From assembly GCA_024707225.1 (NCBI GenBank), contig JANQAE010000003.1, positions 310,001-374,000 on the forward strand: a DNA stretch of 64,000 nt. Reading direction: 5' to 3'. The stretch comes from Dokdonella sp. GTDB lineage: Bacteria > Pseudomonadota > Gammaproteobacteria > Xanthomonadales > Rhodanobacteraceae. A program made the position numbers and the translations under genes. The notes below the pieces were generated by a model, which made no database searches, was not told the origin of the DNA, and was given only the letters and a program-made list of their open reading frames with translations. How positions within the stretch are numbered: the first letter of the stretch is position 1; each line of letters starts with the position of its first letter. Shown here one piece after another: positions 13,136 to 14,809 of the stretch.

Positions 13136-13279
13136 GACGCATGCTACCGCCGGCCGCGGCGTCCTGATCGTGGCGATCGGGTCCGACCGATCGTCCCTGC
13201 ACGATCGCCGGTGCAGATGATGTCGGCCGGAACGCGATCGGCCCGGTTGAAAGCGGCCCTGCCGCCCCCATCCCGGACC

Positions 13280-13343
13280 GGCGAGGACGACCTCCCCCGC
13301 TTCGGGCAGCATCGCCGAGACGACCCGGCCTTCGATCCGGAGG
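13280..13343 (+). promoter_or_regulatory. candidate guanidine-II (mini-ykkC) riboswitch and SD of gdx
   Basis: Two small hairpins, each capped by ACGA, stand 16 bases apart just before the gdx start. Hairpin 1 is 13280-13297 (stem GAGG/CCTC extended after one mismatch, loop 13287-13290). Hairpin 2 is 13314-13329 (stem GCCGAG/CCCGGC with one mismatch, loop 13320-13323). GGAGG follows at 13339-13343, six bases before the ATG. Twin hairpins with ACGR loops near the ribosome site are the hallmark of the guanidine-II class, which turns on guanidinium exporters when guanidine is bound. The gene behind it is of the right type. Confidence 0.75.
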
Positions 13344-13349
13344 TCCCTC

Positions 13350-13670
13350 ATGTCCTGGTTGTTCCTGCTCGCCGCCGGCGCGCTCGAAATCGTCTGGGCG
13401 TACGCGCTCAAGCAATCGGCCGGCTTCACCCGCCTCACACCTTCCCTGATCACGCTGACCGCGATGATCGGCAGCTTCGGCCTGCTCGCGCTGGCGATGC
13501 GCACGCTGCCGCTCGGCACCGCCTACACGATCTGGACCGGCATCGGCGCGGTCGGCGCGTTCGTGGTCGGCATCGTCGTGCTGGGGGAGGCGGCTTCGCC
13601 GTTGCGGGTGGCTGCGGCGTGCTTGATCGTGGCGGGGCTGGTGCTGATGAAGGTGTCTTCTTCGGCCTGA
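13350..13670 (+). CDS. gdx: guanidinium exporter, SMR family
   Basis: A 106-residue four-helix small multidrug resistance protein of the SugE/Gdx subgroup, a proton-coupled dual-topology dimer exporting guanidinium. The essential Glu is in [17 protein letters not shown], and the subgroup signature [17 protein letters not shown] is clear. The [11 protein letters not shown] segment also fits Gdx better than EmrE. SD GGAGG six bases before the ATG is part of the candidate guanidine-II riboswitch. It lies alone, divergent from dinB. Confidence 0.9.
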
Positions 13671-13957
13671 TGCGTGCTTCCGCGACGGCTGTGCCCTGCT
13701 TCGTCGGTGGGTGGCATCCCTTTCTCTTGCGTGCCCACAGCGCTGCAGGAGCGGCGAGGCCGGTTTGATGTTTGGATGGTTTTCGCTTCGTAGGTGTGCG
13801 GCATCCCTGCCTGGTTTCCGCTCGTTCCCGCGAGCGGGTCACTGTCTCTTGCCTGCCCACCGTGTCGCAGGAGCGGCGGGGCGGTTTGATGGTTGGGTGG
13901 TTGTTGCTTCGTAGGTGGTCGGCATCCCTGCCTGGTTTCCGCTCGCTCCCGCGAGCG

Positions 13958-13993
13958 GGTTACTTTCTCTTGCGTGCCCAAGAGAAAGTAACC
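13958..13993. repeat. perfect 14-bp hairpin of arm A
   Basis: GGTTACTTTCTCTT pairs without mismatch with AAGAGAAAGTAACC around the loop GCGTGCCC. The equivalent hairpin of arm B at 14532-14567 has stem GGTTACTTCTCTTT/AAAGAGAAGTGACC with one mismatch and the loop GGGCACGC, the exact reverse complement of the arm A loop. The stem bases differ between the arms while pairing is kept. Confidence 0.85.
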
Positions 13994-14025
13994 AAAGAGA
14001 AGGGCACCCCACAGACGTGCCCTCC

Positions 14026-14186
14026 GGGCCTCCTGCCCTGCGGGTCCGTGGGCCGGAGCCGAGGTTCGTCGACAGCACCTCCTGTGCTGACGACGAACGC
14101 GCGGGCCTCCCTGCCCGCGCCCCTGCGGGCTTTTCGGCCCCGACCCACCACGTCTGACGGGACCCGAGAGCGCGCTTCCTGCGCGC
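14026..14186 (-). ncRNA. four hairpins with AGGAN loops on the minus strand (arm A)
   Basis: Four stem-loops: 14026-14038 (GGGC/GCCC), 14064-14098 (8-bp outer and 6-bp inner stem), 14099-14120 (8-bp stem GCGCGGGC/GCCCGCGC) and 14170-14186 (GCGCGC/GCGCGC). On the plus strand their loops read CTCCT, CTCCT, CTCCCT and TTCCT, so a minus-strand transcript would show AGGAG, AGGAG, AGGGAG and AGGAA. Hairpin loops with A-x-GGA are the binding form for CsrA/RsmA. Transcription is not shown; I have no promoter evidence, so this is a candidate RNA only. Confidence 0.4.
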
Positions 14187-14337
14187 AGAAGATCAAGCAA
14201 AAGCAAAAAGCGGCGGCGATTGCGCCCTGCCCCTGCTATTTCGCTGCCGCATTCAATCCAAGTTTCGCTTTCATCCACACTCGCTCATTAATGCGCAGGC
14301 GGTCGCTTCTCCGCTTCTCGCTCCTGCACTTGCTTGA

Positions 14338-14499
14338 GCGCGCAGGACGCGCGCCCACGGGGCCCCTGTGCCGCGGCGAAGGTGCGTAGGAACAGCCCGA
14401 AGGGTGGGCCACAGGACGTGGCCCAGTCTGCTGTCAGCGCAGGATGCGCTGTCAGCAGACCTCCGGAGCGCCTTCGCGCAGTCGCAGGGCAGGATGCCC
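14338..14499 (+). ncRNA. four hairpins with AGGAC/AGGAT loops on the plus strand (arm B)
   Basis: Counterpart of the arm A cluster in opposite orientation: 14338-14354 (GCGCGC stem, loop AGGAC), 14406-14424 (GGGCCAC/GTGGCCC, loop AGGAC), 14426-14460 (GTCTGCTG/CAGCAGAC outer stem, T.T mismatch, CAGCGC/GCGCTG inner stem, loop AGGAT) and 14487-14499 (GGGC/GCCC, loop AGGAT). The order is mirrored relative to arm A and stem changes are compensated. The GCAGGATGC form is close to the CsrA/RsmA consensus. No promoter was recognised. Confidence 0.4.
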
Positions 14500-14809
14500 G
14501 GAGACCGCGGTACCGGGGTGCCCTTTCTCTTGGTTACTTCTCTTTGGGCACGCAAAGAGAAGTGACCCGCTCGCCCGGAGGCGAGCGGAATAAGGCACGG
14601 ATGCCGATCGCCTACGAAGCACCATCCCTCCAACATCAAACGGCTTCGCCGTTCGCGCCGCTCCTGCGGCGCGTGGGCATACAAGAGAGTGACCCGCTCG
14701 CACGAAGGCAAGCGGAAAAGCGGCAGGAATGCCGCCGACTGACGAAGCAAACACACAGCAATCGGCAACAACCCGAACCCGCCCGCCATCCGCAGGCGAG
14801 CAGAAAAAC

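Follow-up and report, generated by a model that had tools for sequence, protein, structure and literature searches.

A kilobase of intergenic DNA in Dokdonella sp., at positions 13698–14750 of the window (the whole 64,000-nucleotide stretch analyzed here, whose numbering we use throughout), comprises two divergent copies, head to head and each about 210 nt long, of a structured RNA unit that is dispersed in many places. Our reading, held with somewhat better than even confidence, is that the unit ends in a predicted triple-helix pseudoknot and, when transcribed, likely serves as a multicopy decoy that titrates CsrA (RsmA). Mechanistically, the multibranched body of each unit displays hairpins with the CsrA motif A(N)GGA, about four in number. 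Toward the 3′ end, a short segment, X, pairs with the loop of a hairpin, S2, and the pyrimidine tract between X and S2 would lie in the S2 major groove, forming U.A-U and C+.G-C triples. Transcribed units, present in many copies, would bind and titrate CsrA, and the tail would probably cap the RNA against 3′ exonucleases, by analogy with ENE/MALAT1-type RNAs, in which a triple helix protects the 3′ end. That the unit is transcribed, that it binds and titrates CsrA, that its tail resists exonucleases, and how its copies spread are what we infer; that the copies would be sufficient in number to titrate CsrA is, in our view, the best account of them.

The element and its surroundings

The source genome comprises 4.37 Mb on four contigs. 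The element lies between two genes that converge on it, encoding an SMR transporter and an AcrB-type RND pump. None of six ORF translations inside or across it exceeded the cut-off of any Pfam family, so a coding function finds no support; a preliminary description of this DNA had likewise seen no gene here. The parts of the locus are as follows.

13350–13670, plus strand: SMR transporter gene (PF00893)
13698–14750, no strand: whole element, two RNA units back to back with additional partial modules on either side
13958–14187, minus strand (outward): left RNA unit, with 5′ GGA hairpin, multibranched GGA body and predicted triple-helix tail
13958–14165, minus strand: left unit, match to covariance model R1, 214.7 bits (contig C4, 323958–324165)
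13957–14011, minus strand: left tail, R2 model 80.1 bits; S2 13958–13972/13979–13993, loop X′ 13973–13978, t1 13994–14001, X 14003–14007
14020–14044, minus strand: left hairpin H4, loop AGGAG
14064–14098, minus strand: left hairpin H3, loop AGGAG
14099–14120, minus strand: left hairpin H2, loop AGGGAG
14170–14186, minus strand: left 5′ hairpin, GCGCGC-AGGAA-GCGCGC
14188–14337, no strand: centre separating the 5′ ends of both units, in which no sigma-70-like promoter was found
14338–14588, plus strand (outward): right RNA unit, same architecture as the left, then a GC hairpin
14359–14567, plus strand: right unit, match to covariance model R1, 215.4 bits (contig C4, 324359–324567)
14338–14354, plus strand: right 5′ hairpin, GCGCGC-AGGAC-GCGCGC
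14406–14424, plus strand: right hairpin H2, loop AGGAC
14426–14460, plus strand: right hairpin H3, loop AGGAT
14481–14505, plus strand: right hairpin H4, loop AGGAT
14514–14568, plus strand: right tail, R2 model 77.5 bits; X 14518–14522, t1 14524–14531, S2 14532–14546/14553–14567, loop X′ 14547–14552
14569–14588, plus strand: GC hairpin directly after the right tail, CGGA loop
14810–17971, minus strand: AcrB-type RND pump gene (PF00873)

GC hairpins similar to that at 14569–14588 come after many tails elsewhere. Sequence comparison bears out the layout first described, in which three direct modules on the left and two reversed modules on the right flank a unique centre, with imperfect inverted arms. 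The left side carries a 25-nt family at 13697, 13784 and 13905, together with a 102-nt pair (13758/13879, 89%); the reversed partners lie on the right at 14593–14634 and 14718–14749. Over 92 nt, the arms 13951–14042 and 14483–14574 show 76% complementarity; aligned with its reverse complement, the element as a whole is 70% identical across about 970 nt. The paired hairpins with exactly complementary loops are also there, with stems (left, 13958–13972/13979–13993; right, 14532–14546/14553–14567) that measure 15 bp each (100%, and 93% with one U-G) and loops of 6 nt, which are exact reverse complements because the two units sit on opposite strands.

Beside the element, a sub-threshold match to the Guanidine-II (mini-ykkC) riboswitch (13279–13328, plus strand; 28.5 bits against a cut-off of 32) adjoins the 5′ side of the SMR gene and contains two hairpins with ACGA loops. 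The SMR gene likely encodes a guanidinium exporter.

The fold and its strand

Each arm of about 250 nt folds, on either strand, with an energy 6.5 to 8.6 SD below that of 200 dinucleotide shuffles. The evidence for a specific RNA comes from an alignment (A1) of 42 units from the source genome, its relatives and named records, all read on the outward strand. Units were gathered by a single-round collection, and removing those that shared words reduced 91 extended units to 56; 42 of the 56 entered A1, with six tail-only units, five lacking a tail, one short, one near-duplicate and one degenerate unit excluded. The structure was drawn on one A1 member, and an RNAalifold run made without that member closely reproduces it.

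In this alignment 96.4% of 2619 cells are paired, and 51 of 64 base pairs show both-sided, compensatory change. The covariation score is 0.497, compared with 0.173 for shuffles and no more than 0.121 for slid controls. Read on the outward strand, the non-Watson–Crick cells comprise 87 G-U, 17 A-C and 76 other mismatches. G-U also exceeds A-C by 22 to 3 in 57 distinct tail hairpins and by 41 to 1 in the stems of 49 tails. Since the complement strand would give the reversed ratio, the outward strand is the folding strand. Covariation among aligned sequences thus shows both this strand and the secondary structure. The preliminary description had treated the DNA inverted repeat itself as the object of interest; selection acts instead on a strand-specific RNA fold, as the covariation and the excess of G-U over A-C attest. 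Such a fold explains how a non-coding element keeps its hairpins despite sequence drift.

A pseudoknot and a predicted third strand in the tail

The 3′ end of the unit reads, in order, 5′-X t1 [6-nt lower stem] t2 X′ t2′ [lower stem]-3′. Covariation is seen in stem S2, which the lower stem and t2:t2′ make up. Complementarity between the loop X′ and X stands clearly above permutation in a single register: across 57 classes, from tails filtered for a mirror identity of at least 6/8, none of 20000 permutations reaches the observed complementarity. Four of the five pairs in the resulting X:X′ stem (S1) change on both sides, with the stem formed in only 75.9% of cells and its outer pair in 23 of 49 tails.

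The tract t1 is a mirror of t2, neither a copy nor a complement of it. Mirror identity averages 6.03/8 over 30 distinct t1/t2 classes against 4.98 when permuted (0 of 20000 permutations reach it), while direct t1/t2 identity averages 4.5 over 108 hairpins. A mirror tract laid parallel to the purine strand t2′ yields U.A-U and C+.G-C triples, and the counts follow that rule. In alignment A3, which holds 49 tails of 55 nt hand-picked from 78 classes after the mirror filter (at least 6/8; 94 of 108 passed), 388 of 392 cells are U.A-U or C+.G-C, with 82 of 83 G and 0 of 307 A facing C; A3 contains only nine distinct t1/t2′ pairs, and one permutation in 20000 equals the observed value. The mirror filter favors this result, and the count was therefore repeated without it on every 55-nt class with a 15-nt arm. 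Among these 48 distinct tails, C stands opposite 83 of the 85 stem G and 4 of the 298 A; the corresponding mirror-filtered set of 47 tails gives 81 of 83 G. Displacing the same 48 tails by one column leaves C facing G in 2/85 and 2/84 cases. Two columns off, the figures are 37/85 and 37/82, because the tracts alternate. Both the 30-class mirror test and the 48-tail count require 6/8 pyrimidines upstream.

A wider set of 144 distinct tails, found by a profile and free of any t1 filter, although the search profile itself includes t1, gives G facing C in 167 of 227 cases, against 24/227 and 14/213 one column off and 94/227 and 67/202 two columns off. The tail model recovers more mirror classes in distant genomes, including TCTTCTTT/TTTCTTCT and CTTTCTTT/TTTCTTTC. 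Covariation thus shows the loop-X pairing and the register of the third strand in the aligned tails, and the alignment pattern is that expected of a major-groove triple helix; from it we infer the three-dimensional triple helix.

The geometry can be sketched from the rules for pseudoknots, whose deep groove lets a strand bridge about 6 bp with almost no linker. With zero nucleotides between t1 and S2, the model requires the strand to cross the deep groove along the lower stem of 6 bp. The third strand would start at the X:X′ junction, descend S2 beside the purine strand and cross that lower stem. C+.G-C triples require protonation. Several divergent tails, of one csrA-bearing family (f17), are shorter, with room, by eye, for about 3–5 triple layers, which counts slightly against a uniform triple helix.

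Two single-genome variants deserve mention. In G325 (loci L233 and L234) the Watson–Crick partner t2 is mutated and the third strand still matches t2′. In G384 (L235 and L236) the purine strand carries a T (AAATGAAA), faced by G in the third strand, possibly a natural G.U-A triple, in this one genome only. G is the best triplet choice against such an inversion of the purine strand. A recent study reports that, in its conditions, no nucleobase among those tested could read inversions of this kind (PMC13407867).

GGA loops and CsrA

The body presents a second conserved feature. On its outward strand, each unit has some four hairpins bearing A(N)GGA in loops of 5–6 nt, and in A1 the motif sits in the loop of H2 in 35 of 42 units, of H3 in 41 and of H4 in 27. 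The stems of H2 and H3 change while their loops stay CAGGATG, CAGGGATG, CATGGATG, CACGGACG and similar. The 1053-nt element holds eight GGA hairpins on its outward strands and three on its inward strands; the remaining window has a background of 0.19 per kb per strand, and 500 mononucleotide shuffles of the element yield a mean of 0.29 and a maximum of 3. The strand bias recurs across five groups, where counts on the opposite versus the folded strand are 2/151, 7/85, 0/21, 0/51 and 2/58; Ilyobacter gives 0 versus 0 and plasmids 0 versus 2.

ANGGAN in hairpin loops is, according to one study, the recognition motif of RsmN/RsmA, with binding about twofold weaker for a 5-nt loop and weak for a 4-nt loop (PMC3791407). 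Decoy sRNAs, according to a survey, antagonize CsrA through short ANGGA hairpins that mimic the motif (PMC7366521). The source genome contains a single csrA, as far as was found, on contig C1 at 1226104–1226259. An R1 match under 1e-20 occurs in 21 genomes, every one of which has csrA, as do 102 of 121 sampled genomes overall.

If the GGA hairpins are CsrA sites, they should be absent where csrA is absent. To test this prediction, the 260 nt that precede each tail were examined for GGA hairpins, at fetched loci only and dropping tails with less than 150 nt upstream. Such hairpins occur in 30 of 40 genomes with csrA and in none of nine without it, the latter holding 49 tails (Fisher 4.5e-5, uncorrected for kinship). 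Adding seven genomes with weaker tails, missed at first, brings the counts to 36/46 and 0/10 and strengthens the test slightly: six (G200, G204, G286, G375, G423 and G435) have csrA, belong to family f17 and all carry GGA hairpins, and one (G133) has neither csrA nor a GGA hairpin. The test left out 12 genomes lacking a csrA call, 11 of them with GGA hairpins. By family, the counts are 9 of 16 with csrA and 0 of 4 without; csrA and GGA hairpins are both clade-bound, and the association at family level is weak. The comparison is suggestive and supports the CsrA reading, yet it is no closed case. As background, the survey describes csrA as rare in Betaproteobacteria (PMC7366521).

The exceptions are instructive about the tail. 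No GGA hairpin was found at the examined tails of 10 of the 46 csrA-bearing genomes that carry one, and genomes without csrA keep the tail; CsrA therefore cannot be the tail's general partner. Its presence in genomes without csrA means that the tail must have a function of its own or its own way of spreading.

Two further observations concern position and composition. One source-genome copy (C1:1222479–1223595) lies 2.5 kb from csrA, with a tRNA match nearby. Adjacency to csrA is not a rule, as none of the copies listed for G005, G021, G077, G111 and G138 is near csrA. In G018 (L132, L184, L185), R1 matches span model positions 19–118 and comprise the GGA core hairpins only, with no tail; some of these matches are divergent neighbors.

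Copies, distribution and mobility

Covariance model R1 finds 21 full units at nine loci in the source genome. At the DNA level the element recurs, whole or in part, at eight further loci there with 82–92% identity (84–92% for long copies), and DNA matches occur in 32 of 60 genomes searched, the source genome included. These findings agree with the preliminary description of a multicopy, drifting element and rule out a local rearrangement that belongs to no family. What matches in relatives is a module of about 210–290 nt and not the kilobase element. Within the order, R1 has matches in 48 of the 121 genomes sampled, counting the source genome, and the exact hairpin pattern is present in 49 named stretches, 38 of which bear the names Dyella, Luteimonas, Lysobacter, Dokdonella, Rudaea or others that we take to belong to Lysobacterales. 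Some copies in G001, G011, G346 and G363 are only a few hundred bases from the end of a contig; the repeat may interrupt draft assemblies, which would then undercount copies.

The tail reaches further, and the earlier restriction of the element to this lineage proved too narrow. Of 299 Pseudomonadota genomes sampled, 74 have a match to tail model R2, again with the source genome, and a plasmid of Ilyobacter polytropus (Fusobacteriota) carries six tail copies. There the tail belongs to an inverted-repeat element whose end, a short terminal inverted repeat, comes about 28 nt beyond the tail. With a 49-nt tail as query, blastn finds plasmids of Pseudoalteromonas, Variovorax, Burkholderia, Caballeronia, Paraburkholderia and Chitinibacter; for each of the first four genera, one plasmid was confirmed with the tail profile. 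The bodies upstream of the tail vary between lineages. An origin in phages or small plasmids was considered and rejected: the 726-nt core has no phage match and one plasmid record, and the 18 plasmid records for the 49-nt tail are all typed as non-mobilizable, with no E. coli match and only partial phage matches. Separately, 21 nt of the tail match Prevotella Lak phages exactly, at five places in each of nine records, which may be chance or a relative.

The strongest alternative, to which we give perhaps a one-in-four standing, is that the element is simply mobile DNA of a MITE- or REPIN-like kind, in which the tails are terminal inverted repeats, the single-stranded hairpins are read by some transposase and the RNA has no function. 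Multicopy, intergenic inverted pairs with terminal inverted repeats, such as that closing the Ilyobacter copies, speak for it. Among neighboring pairs picked by eye from the matches listed, 31 are divergent, 9 convergent and 5 tandem for R1, all nine convergent pairs being in G126 and G047 (L149–L157); for R2, 44 are divergent and one is tandem. Spacing is near-constant in two genomes, at 478–490 nt in all 18 typed pairs of G387 and 448–454 nt in G184, and suggests recent spread. The earlier judgment that this was not a recent insertion does not extend to genomes such as G387, where the copies look recently mobile. No autonomous partner was apparent inside two wide tail pairs, whose ORFs looked, by eye, unrelated to transposases; nor was a target duplication seen in eight aligned G387 copies. 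More to the point, mobile DNA does not predict G-U exceeding A-C on one strand, constant GGA loops on changing stems, or GGA loops only where csrA occurs. Such a route may be how the copies spread; alone, it accounts for copy number and pairing only, leaving the loop motif, the link to csrA and the strand specificity of the base pairs unexplained. In a related observation, REP-like repeats of another kind (TGTAGGAGCGCAC...GTGCGCGACC) are inserted in pair centres at L099–L103 of G021 and G077.

The position of the element between two converging genes raises a second alternative, a bidirectional terminator or 3′-end stabilizer acting in cis on read-through mRNA, with the CsrA sites secondary. 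Terminator-like stems with U-rich tails do occur on the inward strand (13938–13960), whereas selection is on the outward strand, and the element's three terminator-like hits compare with 1.4 (sd 1.3) expected by shuffle. Flanking gene orientation across copies is mixed, as judged with a rough gene caller, and the csrA association would be left unexplained; we consider this account improbable. A shared central promoter was rejected too: no sigma-70-like promoter was found within the element, and pairs in G126 and G047 are convergent.

Relation to known RNAs and repeats

A scan of the element against Rfam 15 returned one family over its cut-off, Bacillaceae-1 (RF01690; 14408–14470, minus strand; 39.8 bits, cut-off 35), with ten more matches in other source-genome copies (30.6–39.8 bits, two over the cut-off), and this match lies on the strand opposite to the folded RNA. 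That the opposite strand is the RNA, as a Bacillaceae-1-like sRNA with exposed UCCUG loops, is very improbable, because the G-U/A-C counts favor the outward strand, ruling out the TCCT strand, and the matched loops are merely the complement of CAGGACG and CAGGAUG. The reverse complement of the conserved loops of Bacillaceae-1 reads CAGGACG/CAGGAUG, and the strand assignment of that family may deserve a second look. For the folded strand, Rfam 15 offers no fitting family, and no CsrB/Rsm-type decoy reaches its cut-off; matches below cut-off, up to E = 1, are RsmW twice (on the outward strands, 26.7 and 25.8 bits, cut-off 52), Giardia U1 and Hrs10. Across 5.39 million papers, six tail-stem sequence strings turn up in two, both with unrelated titles, and titles and abstract openings yielded no description of the element or its combined features.

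The candidate decoy shares with CsrB/CsrC, RsmX/Y/Z/W/V and Xanthomonas RsmU several A(N)GGA hairpins with 5–6-nt loops on one strand in a csrA-bearing genome. It differs from decoys of the CsrB/RsmZ type in being present as 21 units at nine loci and not as a few genes, in its inverted pairs and covarying third-strand tail, in the lack of a promoter found, and in that titration is only predicted. Triple-helix pseudoknots are familiar from telomerase RNA and the SAM-II riboswitch, and MALAT1 has a tail triple helix; preQ1-II/III riboswitches and dENE are further examples (PMC11625349). Like telomerase RNA, SAM-II, preQ1-II/III and ENE/MALAT1, the predicted tail would set a loop strand in the major groove with U.A-U triples. 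Unlike them, it is predicted to have up to 8–9 layers, including C.G-C, in a repeat of about 55 nt with many copies per genome; compared with the triple-helix riboswitches, no ligand-binding core is seen, and the tail is known here from sequence.

REPINs/REP, ERIC and MITE are short, intergenic, multicopy repeats, often in inverted pairs, and the element resembles them in each respect while differing in its RNA-strand-specific fold with a third strand. Type III toxin-antitoxin RNAs (ToxI/CptI) consist of tandem 30–45-nt repeats that form small pseudoknots with tertiary contacts. The element has similar small, repeated pseudoknots, whereas its flanks are transporter genes and its units are inverted and far apart, not tandem. 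In our judgment the tail defines a family that is new in kind, and the proposed use with CsrA would be a further form of a role already known.

Implications

Looking beyond Dokdonella, we offer a bolder proposal that we regard as plausible, if short of probable: a class of mobile RNA gene, defined by a triple-helix pseudoknot tail of about 55 nt whose third strand covaries, may cross phyla, with different lineages having fitted different bodies to it. In csrA-bearing hosts, it would act as a CsrA sponge in tens of copies, such that repeat dosage would set or hijack CsrA activity.

In Xanthomonas, homologues of known Rsm RNAs are described as absent, and a genus-specific RsmU is proposed, in one report (PMC7694677). 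The source genome and its relatives have CsrA/RsmA; if our reading is true, the element would be a multicopy antagonist of that regulator and a new kind of dispersed RNA switch. A triple helix backed layer by layer by natural covariation, in a repeat found in at least two phyla, would be an unusually clean natural test bed for studies of RNA triplexes, of 3′-end protection and of the spread of RNA-coding repeats.
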